From IMG/VR virus record IMGVR_UViG_3300029319_000079, positions 1 to 51,835 of that record: 51,835 nt of DNA. One strand, written 5' to 3'. Below the pieces are notes generated by a model. It had not been told where the DNA came from. It saw only the letters and a list, made by a program, of their open reading frames with translations, and did no database searches. Below are positions 3,472 to 20,497 of the stretch, piece by piece; positions within the stretch are counted from its first letter, which is position 1; every line of letters begins with the position of its first letter. Origin of the DNA: a virus. Made by a program: the position numbers and the translations under genes.

Positions 3472-4595
3472 TTCTTTCTCCTGTTCTGATTAATCTTAGG
3501 TTTTTTCTTTTTACTTGCAGCTCTAACTTGTGCAGTAGTCTTTGGATATATATCTCCGTGTAATATTCTTCCATTTATAAAATGGCCTAATATCCATTCA
3601 GCATTTCCATTTACAAGATATCTTTCTGGATTTGACTTTGCAAGTTGGTCTAAGTTCTTCCATTTAGACATCATAGTTTTATATGTTGAGCTCTCTCTAT
3701 CTACAGTTGCCTGTATCCATTCTTTAACGCCGTTCATATCCCTACCATATTCTTTATACAAGTGCTTATCACTAATTGTACCCTTATATCTTTCGTGAGC
3801 ACGGACTTCTGGAAAAACTTGTGTTAATCTATCGTAAAACTCTGGGTCCATCAAAGCCCATTTTTCAATGGTCTTCATTGACTCAGCTATCAATGGAGAT
3901 GCAACTCTTAGTGCGTCACCACTCCACATCTGCTCTTCATACCAAGAAGAATATCTTAAATTATTATCTTTAAAATATTTAAAGACATCATTCATTTGCC
4001 AATCATATATCGGTTTACAAAGTGTCGCCCTAGGGCTGAAAGACTTCGCAATATAGTTTTCGGTAACTTTATTAACAACTGAACGATACCTAACAATGCT
4101 TTCATCAGCTCTAATACCATTTACTATTGCAACCTTTCCATTAGGATAGTTTTCTGCAACCATCTTATCAAAATCATCTTGTCCATATATTTTACTAGTA
4201 TTGTCTAAAGTTTCTGCCCATTCTGGTTTTTCTCTAACCCATTGCCTGTCACCAGAAGGGTCCCACTTTATTACCTCTTTGTTAAATCCTAAAACAAACA
4301 TAGTGCTGCTTCTAGGGATACAATACCAAGTCATATTTGTCCAATCTTGGTCAAAATAATATTTTATATTATCAAGTATTGGTTCTGGATTAAATTCTTC
4401 ATCTCTGTGATGACAATCTACAGAATCTATACCTCTTTCTGCTGATACCTCTTTTACTAAATTAAGAACTGCAGTAGAGTCTTTGCCACCAGAAAAAGCA
4501 ACATTTATGTGGTCGTGAGTATCCATAATATGTCTAATACGATTTTTAGACTCTTCATAAACATTTGTATCTATGAATCGTCTCTGTCTAGCCAT
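3468..4595 (-). CDS. PAPS-reductase-like PP-loop protein (IbrA-like)
   Basis: A 375-aa member of the adenine-nucleotide alpha-hydrolase (PP-loop) superfamily. The ATP pyrophosphate-binding motif SGGKDST is at residues 35-41. A downstream GIRADESIVR stretch (about 170) is typical of PAPS-reductase-like proteins such as IbrA and DndC-type enzymes. The C-terminus is very basic. It abuts a ParB-like gene (4595-5242), the same pairing as IbrA/IbrB. In phages such enzymes are suspected to work in nucleic-acid or sulfur chemistry or in gene control. The substrate is unknown, and there are no other dnd genes here, so DNA phosphorothioation is not supported. Confidence 0.85.
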   Translation of the reverse strand: MARQRRFIDTNVYEESKNRIRHIMDTHDHINVAFSGGKDSTAVLNLVKEVSAERGIDSVDCHHRDEEFNPEPILDNIKYYFDQDWTNMTWYCIPRSSTMFVLGFNKEVIKWDPSGDRQWVREKPEWAETLDNTSKIYGQDDFDKMVAENYPNGKVAIVNGIRADESIVRYRSVVNKVTENYIAKSFSPRATLCKPIYDWQMNDVFKYFKDNNLRYSSWYEEQMWSGDALRVASPLIAESMKTIEKWALMDPEFYDRLTQVFPEVRAHERYKGTISDKHLYKEYGRDMNGVKEWIQATVDRESSTYKTMMSKWKNLDQLAKSNPERYLVNGNAEWILGHFINGRILHGDIYPKTTAQVRAASKKKKPKINQNRRKK

Positions 4596-6123: not shown

Positions 6124-6609
6124 CTAAAAAGGCACTCCATTTTCTTCCATTGCTTCAGCAGCATTTGCTTTTGAGCTTTTTGGTGCTTCAATTTCAGATG
6201 CTTTTTTCATCTTGTTTAAAGCATTTGAGTTCATAGGATTACTAGCTTTGTTGATAGAACCAACATTGGCCCATCTCAAACTAACACCTAAATCTTCCAA
6301 ATAAACGCAAGTAGATTCTCTGGAAGTACCATTTGAATCTTCCCACTTTTCTGGAACAACTCTTCCAACAACAATTGCTCTAAAAGACTTACCACCTGCA
6401 TTTACAGTATTTTGGTATGTCTCAGCAATATTTTCTGCTAAATCACCCCAAGCTTTTAAATTAAACCAAAGGGTTTCCTTATCCTCACCATTAGCGTCTT
6501 TTCCTTGGCTAACAGCTAGGCTTCCTCTTATAAATGCTGAACCTGTGTTGTTAACACTCATCTCAACATTTGTAACATTGCCCATTAATTGGACTTGTGA
6601 TACTGGCAT
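6124..6609 (-). CDS. ssb: Single-stranded DNA-binding protein
   Basis: The OB-fold starts MPVSQVQLMGNV and carries the WFNLKAWGDLAENI segment typical of SSB (about 45-60). A flexible tail ends in the acidic tip EENGVPF, the place where SSB recruits partners. I chose the ATG at 6609 over the longer frame opening at 6645 because AGGAGAG lies 4-5 nt upstream. It acts in replication and recombination beside the Rad52-type annealase. Confidence 0.88.
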   Translation of the reverse strand: MPVSQVQLMGNVTNVEMSVNNTGSAFIRGSLAVSQGKDANGEDKETLWFNLKAWGDLAENIAETYQNTVNAGGKSFRAIVVGRVVPEKWEDSNGTSRESTCVYLEDLGVSLRWANVGSINKASNPMNSNALNKMKKASEIEAPKSSKANAAEAMEENGVPF

Positions 6610-6617
6610 TATCTCTC

Positions 6618-7163
6618 CTAATATTCTTCTTCTGGGTTTTCCCAATTACTTAAAATACCCTCTAAGACTTCTTTTATCTTAGAAAGTCGAAAGAGTACTA
6701 TGCCATCTGATTCTCCGTCTGGCATAGCAACCATCATAAATGGTTTGCCTCTTCCTCCAACAACATTCTTAACATTTTCCCAAGATTGAGCTTCTGCTTT
6801 GTTGAATCTTGTTGCTATAGGCCCTACTTGTTTGCCGGCTTTCACCTCAATGCGAACAGCAGAACGCCAATTTTCCTCGTGTGCATCAGCACCGTGAAAC
6901 TTTCTATCTGGAATACCTAATTTTTTTCTAACCATATTTTGTTTACGCTTACCTTTTGCTCTGTTCTTTCTATTAATACAAGTTCTACATCTACAAGTTC
7001 TTTTAGGTAAATCAGTTTCTGGACACATCCCTCTGGCATTTTTTTGGCTGTTAGCCATTCCTATTCCTTGTTGTCCACTAAATCTATTAGCTTTATATTC
7101 ATCCCAAGATTCTTTCTCTGGGTCCCAACCATTATTATTCTTAGGCTTAATATATCCGCTCAT
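6618..7163 (-). CDS. Probable PD-(D/E)XK nuclease / resolvase-like protein with Cys cluster
   Basis: The N-terminal part carries a Cys cluster (CPETDLPKRTCRCRTC) and basic residues. The C-terminal half has VRIEVKAGKQVGP followed by a helix and FMMVAMPDGESDGIVLF, which resembles the E-x-K core of VRR-NUC or Holliday-junction-resolvase-like nucleases. It sits between SSB and the winged-helix/annealase genes, a usual place for a recombination nuclease. The nuclease call is inferred from motif shape. Confidence 0.55.
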   Translation of the reverse strand: MSGYIKPKNNNGWDPEKESWDEYKANRFSGQQGIGMANSQKNARGMCPETDLPKRTCRCRTCINRKNRAKGKRKQNMVRKKLGIPDRKFHGADAHEENWRSAVRIEVKAGKQVGPIATRFNKAEAQSWENVKNVVGGRGKPFMMVAMPDGESDGIVLFRLSKIKEVLEGILSNWENPEEEY

Positions 7164-11560: not shown

Positions 11561-11581
11561 ACCCAAAGCCAAAATTTTTCT

Positions 11582-11670
11582 CGGAGGTTTTTTCGACCCT
11601 CATAATGCGTCTCCGGAGGTTTATTCAGCATCCATAATGCGTGACGGAGGTTTTTAGCAGCATCATAATG
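11582..11670 (+). repeat. Three tandem CGGAGG...AATG elements
   Basis: Copies start at 11582, 11614 and 11645 (period 31-32 nt). Each reads CGGAGGTTT, about 13 variable bases and T-AATG-CG, with 21 nt from the first G of GGAGG to AATG in all copies. Single or paired copies recur at 15935, 17558, 20440 and 20472. Confidence 0.85.
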
Positions 11671-12079: not shown

Positions 12080-12560
12080 TAACGGCTTTTTGACAACAGA
12101 ATAAAGATAGATGATTTGATTGAGGGTTACTACTGAGACCGTAAAGTGTTCAGAGTATCGAAAAGAAATCACTTGCTTCAGACACGATATAGACCACGAG
12201 GCTTCCTAGGATGCTGACTGAAGACTAGCGTCACTCGAAGTCCAATATGAGCTTATCGAAACTACCTGCACAGGTTTGTCCTCGAAAGGGGAAGTTGCAA
12301 CTAAATCGGTGGGAACGCTCAATCAAGTCATTTATCCAAAGGTTTAACTATCTAAGTAGTAGGGTGTGATTAGGGGCATTGGGATTGTTCAAATTAATTG
12401 CCTAGTTGAGTTAACTAAATACTAGGACAACCATACTAACGGTCATAGCAATCGGTCACTTAGACCGAGCCTTGAATATAACAGAGGTGTCGAAACCTCA
12501 AATAGCGAATGAGTAGGCGAAACGAAAATGTTGCGGTTATATTTGTATACTACTTGGATA
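12080..12560 (+). ncRNA. Candidate large structured RNA (about 480 nt)
   Basis: The sequence has no convincing gene but many local helices: TCCTC-GAAA-GGGGA (12279-12292), CCTAGT/ACTAGG (12401-12406 with 12421-12426), TCGGTC/GACCGA (12452-12468), GAGGT/ACCTC (12484-12499). A closing 8-bp stem AATATAAC/GTTATATT (12475-12482 with 12536-12543) encloses the last of these. It has a dedicated promoter. It could be a GOLLD/ROOL-like giant RNA or a new class; a group I intron was considered but its core is not evident. Confidence 0.6.
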
Positions 12561-12578
12561 CTTAAATCTTTGGAATGA

Positions 12579-12608
12579 TTTGACATTATTTCAATTATAT
12601 GAGATAAT
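12579..12608 (+). promoter_or_regulatory. Promoter for gene 12616-12774, leaderless
   Basis: TTGACA (12579-12584), 18 bp, GATAAT (12603-12608). The ATG at 12616 is at the expected transcription start. Confidence 0.7.
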
Positions 12609-12615
12609 TATATTA

Positions 12616-12774
12616 ATGGAAATGCAAACACTAAATAAATACGAGAGGGTTTACTCTTGGCTTATCAACGAGCTAGAGCTAAACAAAATCAATCATCCTT
12701 CAGAGGATGTGCGAGGCTGGTTGGCTATGCTTCAAGAGAGCCTTGAATACAACCTCTCAAAATTTGAGGACTAA
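12616..12774 (+). CDS. Small hypothetical protein (52 aa)
   Basis: A helical, amphipathic protein (NKYERVYSWLINELEL). The start was set at 12616 because the longer frame opening at 12580 would begin inside the -35 box. The function is unknown. Confidence 0.65.
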   Translation: MEMQTLNKYERVYSWLINELELNKINHPSEDVRGWLAMLQESLEYNLSKFED

Positions 12775-12834
12775 GGTCTTCGGGGTTTGTAAGCACCTGT
12801 CAACAGAAGCTTACAGCCGCAAGGCTACAAACAG
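12773..12834 (+). ncRNA. Intercistronic hairpin element, copy 1
   Basis: The layout is GTCTTCGGGG, then GTAAGC (12789-12794), AC, CTGTCAACAG (12797-12806), AA, GCTTAC (12809-12814). A second hairpin follows (AGCCGCAAGGCT), then ACAAACAGAAAGG. The same architecture with a different but complementary 6-bp stem is at 18354-18392. Confidence 0.65.
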
Positions 12835-14389: not shown

Positions 14390-15046
14390 ATGCCCAACTG
14401 GAGCAGAAATAGAATAACAATGTATGAAAATTATGAGCTTGATAGCACTGATTTTTATAAGAACAAAGAAGGCAAACACGCCATAACTGACATTTATGAG
14501 CAGTTTGTTAAGGACATTACAGTAGTAAATAAAGAAGGTAAGGAATATTACAACCTTATGGAAGTAAATCCTACACCAGAAATACTTAGTAAGGTTCACG
14601 CAAGTAGCCCACCATACCTTGTCAGAGACAGGAAAACAGGTGAGTTTGTTTCTCAAAGTGTATGGGATATGGAAACAGAGGACAGGAACTTGTTCTATGA
14701 TACCAATACTCACCCAAAGCTTGAGAAAGTAGAAATTGTGGAAGGCACAGACATCTACAACGAACTTATAGAAAAGTATGGATGCCTTTCTTGGTATGAC
14801 TGGAATGTCAAAAACTGGGGAACTAAGTGGGAAATTACACTAGACAAAAGTGAAATCTCATTTGATGAGTATAACTTACAGTTCTATTGTGATAGTGCTT
14901 GGTGTCCACCAGAAGTATTACTACAAGACATTGCTGACAAATACAATGTCAATGTAGAGTGCTTCTACGAGATAGAAGGATATGGTAATGATGGCGTAGG
15001 TAAAGATACTTACGAGCCAGCTTCTTCACTAGAAGTAGAAGTCTAA
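14390..15046 (+). CDS. Api92-like / DUF1281-type ferredoxin-like protein
   Basis: The N-terminus MPNWSRNRITMY resembles the PNWxxN start of Api92-like phage proteins. The family's other landmarks follow: NLMEVNPTPEIL (about 55-66), YDWNVKNWGTKW (about 137-148) and FYCDSAWCPPEVL (about 165-177). The family is widespread in phages and plasmids; its function is not established. It has its own promoter and a strong ribosome site. Confidence 0.85.
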   Translation: MPNWSRNRITMYENYELDSTDFYKNKEGKHAITDIYEQFVKDITVVNKEGKEYYNLMEVNPTPEILSKVHASSPPYLVRDRKTGEFVSQSVWDMETEDRNLFYDTNTHPKLEKVEIVEGTDIYNELIEKYGCLSWYDWNVKNWGTKWEITLDKSEISFDEYNLQFYCDSAWCPPEVLLQDIADKYNVNVECFYEIEGYGNDGVGKDTYEPASSLEVEV

Positions 15047-15049
15047 CAA

Positions 15050-15310
15050 TTGAATAAAGCTAATTACTGACCAGATATTGTGTAGTGATGCACAAGATAA
15101 TCGGATAATGTGGCCTAATTAACCACACCTTTGATGGAGGAAATAGAAACGCAACGGTTTCCATCACGCAGGTCGGTAGGTAGCTTGTAGCACATAGGTA
15201 AAATACGTTTGTAATCAGTCGCTCTGAGAAAACTTACTGTGTGCTACAAGCTATGTAGGGCTGGAGGCTTACGCCGAGGACTACCACGGGCTTGCCCGTT
15301 GCCCTTGATA
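15050..15310 (+). ncRNA. Structured 3' region or RNA (about 260 nt)
   Basis: No ORF. Helices include TGATGGA/TCCATCA (15132-15138 with 15160-15166) and a perfect 14-bp stem (15181-15194 with 15240-15253). There is also ACGGG-CTTG-CCCGT (15286-15299), a stable CUUG tetraloop hairpin. It is probably read from the 14335 promoter as a 3' UTR, or released as a separate RNA. Its class is unknown. Confidence 0.55.
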
Positions 15311-15332
15311 GCAAAATAATTTATAAATTGAC

Positions 15333-15360
15333 TTGACTTATATTAGTTATGTGATATAAT
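15333..15360 (+). promoter_or_regulatory. Promoter of the 15367-15880 RNA
   Basis: TTGACT (15333-15338), 16 bp, TATAAT (15355-15360) with extended TATGTGA. No coding start follows. Confidence 0.75.
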
Positions 15361-15366
15361 TAGTAT

Positions 15367-15880
15367 AAGAAAGGTTGAGATAGCAGTGTAAAGCTATCGA
15401 AGCACTCACTAGGTGAAGATGCAGTATGCAGCTGTAGTAGCAATCGATGGACTTAGTAAGGAAGAATTAGACTAGGACAGAATAACTGGGGGAATAATTC
15501 TTAGACCCAGCCGCAAGCTGGAATGCATCTAAGATATGGAGGAGCCTTTACCATCGGGTAGAGAAAAAGGCGGACCCGGCTAGGAGATGAAGCAGCAATG
15601 CTTGCCAGTGTAAACCAAGTGGACAGGTGAGAGCCCTTCCCGCAACCGTGAGGTTGTTGAACTTGCAATAAGAGTTCTATAAGAGGTAACTGGATTGTGA
15701 CCGCCACCGTTATCCTACGAGTTGACCGAAAATGGAAGTCTAAGTAAACACAGTGAACTTCTTCTGGGGTGTATCAGACGAGTATTCGTTGGGGGTAACG
15801 ATGTACCCAGCGTCGAAAGTTTGTTCGATAGTTTTACACTGTTATCAAGCAATGAAGCTGGACCAGTGGTTTTTTAAGTC
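15367..15880 (+). ncRNA. Candidate large structured RNA (about 510 nt) with its own promoter and terminator
   Basis: The sequence is gene-free and G-rich relative to its surroundings. Helices include GATAGC/GCTATC (15379-15398), CCAGC/GCTGG, GCCTTT/AAAGGC (15544-15571) and AAGCA-GCAA-TGCTT (15590-15603). Further ones are CAACC-GTGA-GGTTG (15643-15656), GGGTA/TACCC (15793-15808) and TCGAA/TTCGA. It ends at CACTG/CAGTG plus a T6 run (15837-15875), a plausible terminator. GNRA loops and repeated junctions suggest an ornate RNA such as GOLLD or ROOL, or something new. Confidence 0.65.
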
Positions 15881-15934
15881 GCTGCTTCTGCAGCTGCCTT
15901 TCTTGTTTGGGCTGCTGGTACAGCACAGAATCGT

Positions 15935-15960
15935 CGGAGGTTTTTACAGACATCATAATG
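15935..15960 (+). repeat. CGGAGG...AATG element, copy 4
   Basis: The spacing is identical to the 11582 copies. Here GGAGGT can also pair with ACCTCC just after AATG. Confidence 0.8.
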
Positions 15961-16023
15961 ACCTCCCAATATTTCACGGACAAAATCTAAACCAAAACTC
16001 TAGATATTTTTTTATTATTTGAC

Positions 16024-16052
16024 TTGCTTTTTTTTATATGATGTGATATAGT
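16024..16052 (+). promoter_or_regulatory. Promoter for gene 16087-16290
   Basis: TTGCTT (16024-16029), 17 bp, TATAGT (16047-16052), then CAAACAAACACAGAAAGG. Confidence 0.65.
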
Positions 16053-16086
16053 ATATATATCAAACAAACACAGAAAGGTTAAAAAA

Positions 16087-16290
16087 ATGGCTGATTGGAA
16101 AATTGAATTAGCTGGTAAAGAATACCAACTACATTATCTAAATGACTTGGCTGATAGTCAAGCAACTGAACTCTATGAGTTGTTAAAAGAACTTATAGAG
16201 ACAGATTGGAATAACTATGCAATGCAGGACAATTACAGATTATATATCTGTGAAGTAGAAAGAGTTCTGGGTTCTAGAGGATTGTTGTAA
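16087..16290 (+). CDS. Small hypothetical protein (67 aa)
   Basis: MADWKIELAGKEYQLHYL, then an acidic helix. Unknown family. It is a monocistronic unit between two promoters with a good ribosome site. Confidence 0.65.
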   Translation: MADWKIELAGKEYQLHYLNDLADSQATELYELLKELIETDWNNYAMQDNYRLYICEVERVLGSRGLL

Positions 16291-17547: not shown

Positions 17548-17557
17548 TTAGATTTAA

Positions 17558-17583
17558 CGGAGGTTTTTCGTGGTCTCTTAATG
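17558..17583 (+). repeat. CGGAGG...AATG element, copy 5
   Basis: Same 25-nt geometry. In this copy the variable part forms CGTGGTCTC/GAGGCCACG around AATG. Confidence 0.8.
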
Positions 17584-17607
17584 AGGCCACGGAGCCAACG
17601 GAGAAAG

Positions 17608-17691
17608 TATTTTGTAGCATATAACACTTATTGCAATAAGTAAAAAACAGTAACCTTAATGGCTAAGTTGTATGTTACAAAATATTTTTTT
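17608..17691 (+). terminator. Large-loop terminator-like structure
   Basis: TATTTTGTA (17608-17616) pairs with TACAAAATA (17676-17684), followed by a T7 run. An inner hairpin ACTTAT-TGCA-ATAAGT lies in the loop. It could end the KTSC transcript. Confidence 0.55.
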
Positions 17692-17730: not shown

Positions 17731-17736
17731 TATATT

Positions 17737-18051
17737 AACAACAAAGAAAGAAGGATTTGAGAGTAAAGTTCCACAATGAGTAATGACTTATAAATGGATA
17801 CTCGCTCTACTCTCAAAGTTTGGGCTAACTGTGGTCTTTAAAGTTTCGAAACCTGTCGCACAGGGAAGAACGCTTGCAGTTAGCTACAAACAAAAGCTAC
17901 CGACAGGGAGCAGGGATTAACGGAGCCGTGTAAGTATCTGGAGAGGTGGGATAACGAACCCATAACTTATAAACCTCTTAATAACCAGAGGATAAACGGA
18001 AAGTTAATTTATCGGACTCCCAAAGTAGCTTACAAACAACAGGGAGAAAAA
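17737..18051 (+). ncRNA. Structured leader or RNA (about 315 nt)
   Basis: No ORF with a ribosome site. Helices: TTGAGAGTA/TACTCTCAA (17757-17765 with 17808-17816) enclosing GAGTA/TACTC, and GCTAACTG/CAGTTAGC (17824-17831 with 17877-17884) enclosing CCTGT-CGC-ACAGG. AGAGGT/ACCTCT and TGGG/CCCA follow. It runs into the ribosome site of the gene at 18052, so it could be a 5' regulatory RNA or a separate RNA. Confidence 0.55.
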
Positions 18052-18180
18052 ATGGAAAATATAAATTATGAATTAATCGGAGCTATATTTATCTCTATTA
18101 TGGCCGTAAGGTTTGCTTGGGATTTTATGCTTTGGGTTGAAAAATGGATTGATAAGTTTTCAAAAATATTTAATAAATAA
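18052..18180 (+). CDS. Small membrane protein (42 aa)
   Basis: One hydrophobic span (LIGAIFISIMAVRFAWDFML) is followed by a basic amphipathic tail. GGGAG precedes the ATG by 5 nt. It is preceded by the 315-nt structured leader. A holin-like or membrane-signal role is possible but unsupported. Confidence 0.6.
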   Translation: MENINYELIGAIFISIMAVRFAWDFMLWVEKWIDKFSKIFNK

Positions 18181-18217: not shown

Positions 18218-18349
18218 ATGAAAACAAAAAATACACAAGGGGTTCTAGTACAAGAATTCACTAATACTAAAGTGGCTTGTACTTGTGGCCGTGGTAACAC
18301 ACACTTCCACAATAGTGGTAAGGGAGTTATCATAACACCTTTAGCTTAG
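18218..18349 (+). CDS. Small Cys/His protein (43 aa)
   Basis: CTCGRGNTHFH (residues 21-31) offers Cys and His ligands for one metal ion. The rest is unrecognised. The transcript is predicted to be leaderless from 18183-18211. Confidence 0.6.
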   Translation: MKTKNTQGVLVQEFTNTKVACTCGRGNTHFHNSGKGVIITPLA

Positions 18350-18353
18350 AATA

Positions 18354-18392
18354 AGTCTCGGGCTCCGTGGGTAGCTGTCAACAGAAACCCAC
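18354..18392 (+). ncRNA. Intercistronic hairpin element, copy 2
   Basis: The layout is GTCTCGGGCTCC, then GTGGGT (18367-18372), AG, CTGTCAACAG (18375-18384), AA, ACCCAC (18387-18392), ACAAACA. The core is identical to copy 1 at 12789-12814, while all mismatched stem positions are compensated. A TCGATA/TATCGA hairpin follows just before the next ribosome site. Confidence 0.65.
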
Positions 18393-18445
18393 AAACAACC
18401 TTCGATAAAAAAAACGGATGAAGAGAAACTATCGAAAGGTTAAAA

Positions 18446-19041: not shown

Positions 19042-19944
19042 ATGAATAAAGATAGAGTTCAAGACTTAACAAACTTGATTGATGAAAAAATCGAAGCTTT
19101 GATTAATTCAAATGACTGGAAAGAATATCTAAAATTTGCTTCGGCACAATATAGATACAGTTGGAATAATCAATTTTTGATTTGGTTTCAATCTTCTGTA
19201 AGGGGTTTTGAAGCTACATATGTGCGTGGTTACAAGCAATGGGAAGCTATAGACAGAACAGTCAAAGCTGGTGAAAAAGCTATGTATGTTTTAGCACCGA
19301 TGTTGGCTCACAGATGTATTGAAAAAGATTGTAAAGCTAGAGCAAAATATTTTCGTGATGGTAAATATTATATTTGCGAAAAAGATAGCAATCACAAAGT
19401 TGGTAAATTCTTAACTGGGTTTAAAGATGTACCAGTCTTTGATATCTCACAAACAGAAGGCGAAGACATTCCACAAATTACTTTAAAGGATAAGTGCGAA
19501 AATGCTAAGCCAGAAATTTGGGATGCGTTGGTCTCACTAGCCGAAAGTTATGATTTCAAAGTTATTATTGGTAATGCAAAAGGTGCCGAAGGGTATTGTT
19601 CACACGATAAAAAAGAAATTGTTATTAGTAGAAATGCAGACTTTGGTTATCAAGTGAAAATATTAGCTCACGAAGTTGGTCATCTATTAATGCACAAAGA
19701 CATTACAGACTACCAACAACAAAGGGCAAGATATGAAACCGAAGCCGAAGGCGTGGCGTGGGTTGTATGTGAAGCCCTAGGCGTTCATAGTGCCGAAGAT
19801 AACTACAGCTTTGGTTACATTGCAACGTGGGGTAAAGATAACACTAAAGCATTAGTGAAGCAATCATTACAAACCATTACTAAGACCAGCCAAACAATTT
19901 TAGATTTTGTTGAAGCTAGGGTGGATGGGTTGGTCAAGGCGTAA
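19042..19944 (+). CDS. ardC: ArdC-like antirestriction protein with zincin metallopeptidase
   Basis: The N-terminal ArdC ssDNA-binding domain (about residues 1-130) includes YSWNNQFLIWFQ and VRGYKQWEAIDRTVKAGEKA. The C-terminal zincin domain has HEVGH at about residue 214 and a downstream glutamate in ETEAEGVAWVV. ArdC proteins protect incoming DNA from host restriction. I set the start at 19042 (AAGAAGGG upstream) and not 19009. Host defence evasion early in infection is the likely role. Confidence 0.9.
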   Translation: MNKDRVQDLTNLIDEKIEALINSNDWKEYLKFASAQYRYSWNNQFLIWFQSSVRGFEATYVRGYKQWEAIDRTVKAGEKAMYVLAPMLAHRCIEKDCKARAKYFRDGKYYICEKDSNHKVGKFLTGFKDVPVFDISQTEGEDIPQITLKDKCENAKPEIWDALVSLAESYDFKVIIGNAKGAEGYCSHDKKEIVISRNADFGYQVKILAHEVGHLLMHKDITDYQQQRARYETEAEGVAWVVCEALGVHSAEDNYSFGYIATWGKDNTKALVKQSLQTITKTSQTILDFVEARVDGLVKA

Positions 19945-20412: not shown

Positions 20413-20439
20413 ACCTAAACTTTAGATGTAGATTTCCTT

Positions 20440-20497
20440 CGGAGGTTTTTAGGCCAAGCCTAATGAACCTTCGGAGGTTTTCTTATGTTGTCTAATG
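20440..20497 (+). repeat. CGGAGG...AATG elements, copies 6 and 7
   Basis: Two copies in tandem (20440 and 20472, period 32) with the same internal spacing as the others. They follow the stop of gene 20134-20412. Confidence 0.85.

Follow-up and report, generated by a model that had tools for sequence, protein, structure and literature searches.

A large structured RNA with a covariation-backed fold in marine siphophages, probably outside the known Rfam families

The phage DNA analysed here (hereafter the window, the 51,835 nucleotides of the IMG/VR record IMGVR_UViG_3300029319_000079) contains at positions 15379-15846 a large structured RNA with six other distinct relatives, all of them in marine phage contigs (L184, L300, L279, L170, L172, and L209). 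The comparison of these relatives shows that the predicted fold, with a long end-closing helix and at least two conserved domains, has been kept by compensatory changes. By the tests described below, the RNA probably represents a new family, absent from Rfam. The idea of a large, ornate, non-coding phage RNA, put forward in a preliminary description of this DNA, is therefore upheld.

Locus and architecture of the RNA

The RNA is located in an interval (15047-16086) without any gene of credible size, between a gene of 218 amino acids (14390-15046) and one of 67 amino acids (16087-16290). It begins about 19 nt 3' of an extended -10 promoter (15333-15360), which scores 11 of 12 against the consensus, as befits the strong promoter initially proposed there, and which shares its type with most promoters of this genome region. 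Matches to the promoter consensus are not in excess in this AT-rich region (4 found, 4.1 expected from shuffles). The promoter call relies instead on its own quality and on its positional conservation, as the relatives display a promoter-like sequence at the same place, just 5' of the closing helix. Transcription would start near 15367. The limits first given for the element, 15367-15880, were thus close, the RNA proper extending from 15379 to 15846. In the window, L300, and L279, a ribosome-binding-site-like AAAGG lies between the promoter and the closing helix P1.

The absence of a gene within the element, also part of the preliminary description, was confirmed. Over 15379-15846, the longest ORF starting with ATG has 18 codons, considering either strand, there are 8-12 stops per forward frame, and no ORF common to the RNAs of the relatives was found. 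A coding explanation was dropped on these grounds. The features of the locus, all on the + strand, are the following (the evidence is given in parentheses).

15333-15360, +: promoter TTGACT-16-TATAAT with extended -10, TGaTATAAT (consensus score)
15379-15846, +: structured RNA, delimited by the two strands of P1 (shuffles, profiles, covariation, ORF check)
15379-15401, +: closing helix P1, 5' strand, pairing with 15824-15846; 23 bp, of which 21 Watson-Crick and 2 GU
15471-15583, +: conserved core with P4, P5, P6, and P6a (covariance model built without the window; covariation)
15489-15495, +: conserved single-stranded block GGGGAAU (alignment)
15499-15505, +: P4, 5' strand UCUUAGA, pairing with UCUAAGA at 15528-15534 (covariation, hand map)
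15507-15521, +: P5 hairpin CCAGC-CGCAA-GCUGG (covariation, hand map)
15528-15534, +: P4, 3' strand (hand map)
15536-15544, +: conserved block AUGGAGGAG, between P4 and P6 (alignment)
15544-15571, +: P6, GCCUUU/AAAGGC, with an A-rich internal loop (covariation, hand map)
15550-15559, +: P6a hairpin ACC/GGU inside P6 (covariation, hand map)
15590-15603, +: variable hairpin with a perfect GNRA loop, AAGCA-GCAA-UGCUU (shuffle test)
15605-15693, +: second domain, closed by P7 (15605-15609/15689-15693) (hand map)
15643-15656, +: P8 hairpin CAACC-GUGA-GGUUG, perfect GNRA loop (shuffle test, hand map)
15659-15677, +: P9 hairpin GAACU...AGUUC (hand map)
15697-15707, +: P10 hairpin GUG-ACCGC-CAC (hand map)
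15715-15732, +: block CUACGAGUU-GA-CCGAAAA, one of the best-conserved sequences in the family (alignment)
15824-15846, +: P1, 3' strand (shuffle test, hand map)
15870-15875, +: T6 run, possible but weak terminator or 3' end (sequence)

The RNA measures 468 nt in the window and 422-468 nt across the family. Its closing helix P1 is uninterrupted over its 23 bp, exceeding all 60 of 60 shuffles (best shuffle 16), and is rebuilt from different sequence in L170, L172, L184, and L279. The window RNA has two perfect GNRA hairpins, the variable one at 15590-15603 and P8, a count matched by 15 of 1000 shuffles (p ~0.015), and a third hairpin, P5, has the loop CGCAA. The folding of the single sequence compared with shuffles is modest (z=-2.3), so that folding alone would not settle the structure. 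With P1 above every shuffle, these two hairpins, and the strong covariation in homologues, the many helices and GNRA loops of the preliminary description were found again, whereas the terminator of its own (a terminal hairpin followed by a T-run) fared poorly. The T6 run is real, and the hairpin before it has 5 bp, a long loop, and about -10 kcal/mol, borrows the 3' strand of P1 and therefore competes with the closing helix, and was not called in the terminator scan.

Relatives and covariation of the fold

Several searches retrieved no relative of the RNA. Using the window and three homologous regions, blastn against the INPHARED phages gave AT-rich promoter-like matches and nothing else, and no homologue was obtained by blastn in 49 phage records encoding related proteins, by a covariance search of those 49 records (most of which are fragments), by a back-translation scan of a spurious ORF, or by an exact 19-mer search. 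The entry route was a conserved hairpin upstream of the RNA (15176-15257), whose arm TAGCTTGTAGCACATA is found in at least 120 IMG/VR stretches. The contigs with this arm included homologues of another RNA of the window (12083-12345, hereafter the companion RNA), and the DNA around those homologues contained RNAs with the blocks of our candidate, in the corresponding position after a promoter. A profile of the window, L184, and L172 independently retrieved L170 (4e-17) as well as L209, a near copy of L172. L279 was brought in by a search with one companion-RNA block and L300 by the block CUACGAGUU-CCGAAA, and a five-member profile recovers them at 7e-69 and 1e-80, respectively. A final pattern scan gave no further member, and a weak model match in L276 was discarded as noise. 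The RNAs of the relatives are about 44% identical to that of the window, and the seven members correspond to about four lineages (the window; L184/L300/L279; L170; L172/L209).

A covariance model of the core (P4-P5-P6), built from L184, L300, and L279 with the window left out, has a single match in the window (15471-15583, 49 bits, E=7.8e-11) and also recovers L170, L172, and L209. In the core alignment of seven distinct sequences, 96.3% of the cells are paired and 19 of the 24 base pairs show compensatory changes on both sides, counts that overstate independence because the alignment had been adjusted to the structure and its seven sequences come from about four lineages. The covariation score of the core reaches 0.81, against 0.31 for shuffled and 0.05-0.13 for slid partners. 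The four lineages have quite different sequences for nearly every helix, and a map traced by hand for P1, P4, P5, P6, P6a, P7, P8, P9, and P10 gives standard pairs in 431 of 438 cases over the seven distinct members, each helix showing four to six distinct 5' strands; being made by hand, this map is supportive and does not amount to a blind test. A model of the 3' domain recovers L170 well (E=2e-8) and gives 18 bits in the window (E=0.1), with L172 and L209 likewise weak (E about 0.1). Therefore, the 3' domain of the window, L172, and L209 rests on the hand map. Overall, compensatory changes are found across independent lineages, and the covariation of the viral homologues is of the helix type and not of the protein type, in agreement with the preliminary description.

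A compact version of about 330 nt is found in nine further contigs, located between genes of apparently one operon. It keeps P1, P5, P6, and P10 and lacks P4, so that four of the nine hand-traced helices are present, together with the CUACGAGUU-CCGAAAA block. It matches the profile of the large RNA in the 3' part only (E about 1e-4), with no match in some contigs. The compact version likely belongs with the large RNA, less firmly than the other members.

Four RNA-bearing records also contain terL. Their TerL is 81-86% identical to that of the window, and the RNA lies 12-19 kb upstream of terL on the same strand. The RNA is thus a feature of one marine siphophage clade and evolves much faster than the terminase. 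Its presence is not universal, as no match was found in records with a 60-96% identical capsid protein, many of which are partial; neither the neighbouring hairpin nor the capsid protein had a match in GTDB genomes. One 23-kb contig (L172, L287) contains the RNA twice, inverted and with equal score (G051:C1:3680-3793 on the - strand and 19590-19703 on the + strand), possibly an inverted-repeat assembly artefact.

Known RNA families and possible roles

No Rfam family matches the RNA when the whole window is scanned at the gathering score, and Rfam scans of the homologues gave no family match either. The candidate families named in the preliminary description (GOLLD, ROOL, HEARO, and introns) were not recovered, as cmscan of 15000-16100 with E up to 10 retrieved no Rfam family at all, GOLLD, ROOL, HEARO, and group I/II introns included. 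A text search of open-access papers returned no description of this RNA.

We lean towards reading 15379-15846 as a stand-alone structural RNA that acts in trans in a marine siphophage and comes from a family outside Rfam, in view of its closed ends and by analogy with the companion RNA. The RNA would be made early, as it is part of a series of short transcription units driven by promoters, next to an ArdC-type anti-restriction gene, and its paired ends would shield it from nucleases. It may act in trans, alone or with protein or ribosome partners, and perhaps together with the companion RNA. Against this stand the gene of about 86 amino acids that directly follows in four of the seven members, as it would after a leader, the intergenic position of the compact version, and the weakness of the terminator in the window. 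The main rival, which we consider conceivable though doubtful, is a very large 5' leader regulating in cis the transcript of its own promoter. In this leader, the outer part of P1 would switch with a downstream copy of the same strand, turning the next gene on or off; the partners would be GUACC...GGUAC, just 5' of the ribosome-binding site, in four relatives and CACUG...CAGUG-U6 in the window. Like riboswitch-type 5' leaders, the RNA begins at the predicted +1 of a promoter and is closed by P1, and in L184, L300, L279, and L170 it runs without terminator into the Shine-Dalgarno sequence and ATG of the same ~86-aa gene. Other structured elements of the region also sit before small genes, and in every member the 3' strand of P1 could be paired instead with sequence lying downstream. 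However, this pairing is not significant in any single member (p 0.08-0.28), the ~86-aa gene was not found in the window by tblastn, and in the window and L172/L209 the stretch between the RNA and the next promoter contains no gene that has a start of its own; the next gene of the window has its own promoter-like site around 16024-16054. The RNA lies in the 5' untranslated region of a gene in four members and not in the window, L172, and L209, and leading the ~86-aa gene therefore cannot be its common function, a leader role being possible in some phages. In addition, known riboswitch aptamers are far smaller than 470 nt, and the window RNA, several times larger, matches no Rfam riboswitch.

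The remaining explanations appear much less probable. It would be very surprising if the RNA were a highly divergent GOLLD or ROOL member forming an RNA-only cage. GOLLD and ROOL are phage RNAs that form such cages without protein partners, often near tRNAs; the solved ROOL has 659 nt and many GOLLD RNAs exceed 800 nt (PMC12286853). The likeness is one of kind, and to this extent the comparison made in the preliminary description stands: the window RNA is, like both, phage-borne, large, elaborate, and without assigned function, it contains GNRA loops and, as in GOLLD, its parts are unequally conserved. The absence of protein partners in GOLLD and ROOL (PMC12286853) is also compatible. The comparison fails in the model match, since neither the window, with E up to 10, nor the homologues, at the thresholds applied to them, gave one, and in the vicinity of tRNAs, since ARAGORN finds none in the window and the RNA has neither an adjoining tRNA nor a tRNA island; with 422-468 nt, it is also shorter than ROOL and about half the size of GOLLD. 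A mobile or catalytic RNA, such as a divergent group I/II intron or another ribozyme beside genes, is similarly hard to credit. Its size, closed shape, and multi-helix fold would be compatible, and the AAAGG before P1 in three members could suggest insertion of the RNA after an ordinary gene leader. Nevertheless, neither the window (E up to 10) nor the homologues match an Rfam intron or ribozyme, no exons, split gene, endonuclease, or reverse transcriptase were seen near the window RNA, and its position relative to terL is similar in the records holding both. Regarding HEARO/OMEGA RNA, no neighbouring ORF is long enough for an IsrB/TnpB-type gene, and the neighbouring ORFs that were scanned matched other families or none. 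Finally, there is little to expect from a structured mRNA stretch serving only as a processing substrate, for example for RNase III at P1, with no role after cleavage. P1 and the neighbouring conserved hairpins do form long helices of the type targeted by RNase III, and the compact version is intercistronic, but a stem alone would suffice for processing, and the interior (P4-P10 and the invariant loops) would not stay conserved.

The companion RNA and its surroundings

The companion RNA is the first domain (12083-12345) of a second structured RNA of the window, whose whole extent (12083-12580) folds with z=-5.6. This domain forms its own family in about ten other contigs (nhmmer), with the blocks CGUAAAGUGUYC..UCGAAAAGAAA and GAAACUACCUGCACAG..AGUUGCAACUAAA, and has no Rfam match. 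It accompanies the 15379-15846 RNA in every phage bearing the latter. In L276, L278, and L281, the companion RNA stands alone with its own promoter and closing helix and, in L278, it has a strong terminator (-19.3 kcal/mol) and opposite-strand genes around it. These stand-alone forms make it probable that RNAs acting in trans are encoded in this gene block. Homology between the 15379-15846 RNA and the other long structured RNAs of the window was rejected, as they have only 9- to 10-mers in common. In L172 (reverse complement, 6270-6740), about 470 nt of apparently structured non-coding DNA, including GGAACCGUGAAGGACACACGACUGUGCGGUUCC, come right after the companion RNA.

Other RNA elements are observed in this region. 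The hairpin at 15176-15257 is a cassette, with a variant at 17604-17688 and further copies in L154-L273, composed of the constant arms UAGGUAGCUUGUAGCACAUA and UGUGUGYUACAAGCUAUCUA around a hypervariable middle (median 62 nt). In the at least 120 IMG/VR stretches that contain it, the cassette often occurs in runs of two or more copies and is frequently located directly before a gene. For 119 of the 134 distinct first arms, the second arm lies no more than 200 nt away; the cassette has no Rfam match and a 21-nt form of it is absent from GTDB genomes. A third structured element (17735-18052, z=-5.3) is located upstream of a small membrane-protein-like gene and has blastn homologues in L172 and L184 (reverse complement, 3890-4060). 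Sub-threshold matches to alphaproteobacterial tmRNA (window 12653-12817 and 18273-18395; L172 1823-1968; L184 10512-10788) seemingly represent one motif (stem-ACCUGUCAACAGAA-stem) that recurs in several phages of the clade. An element of about 80 nt resembling tRNA or tmRNA is found in L184 (9995-10075, - strand), L279 (4258-4339, + strand), and L283 (about 2000-2085, + strand) and is absent from the window. It has an acceptor-type stem GGGRCUG/CAGYUCC and a T-arm GGGGUUCAACUCCCC, without tag region; the tmRNA model gives it 32-39 bits, under the cut-off, and ARAGORN makes no call in L184. Lastly, a repeat of about 27-31 nt, CGGAGGUUUUU...UCAUAAUG(CG), forms GGAGGU/ACCUCC hairpins between transcription units (window 11581-11670, 15934-15966, 17557-17583, and 20439-20480), and similar ones are present in L170 and L184.

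To our knowledge, few large structured phage RNAs have been described so far, and for those studied in most depth no function has been established. The family reported here, from marine phages without near relative in the cultured-phage collection searched (INPHARED), enlarges this set by an RNA whose fold is backed by covariation, which probably also exists in a compact version, and which is constantly accompanied by a second RNA. Its sequences and helices offer concrete material for synthesis, probing, and imaging. Undescribed conserved RNAs thus appear unusually abundant in the early region of these phages. It is tempting, though speculative and on balance rather improbable, to see in them a multi-RNA module of the clade working together in early infection, with RNA rather than protein carrying out the takeover, and comprising the RNAs at 15379-15846, about 12083-12345, and about 17740-18050, the hairpin cassettes, and the tmRNA/tRNA-like pieces. 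If true, such a module could act, for example, on host ribosomes or on trans-translation.
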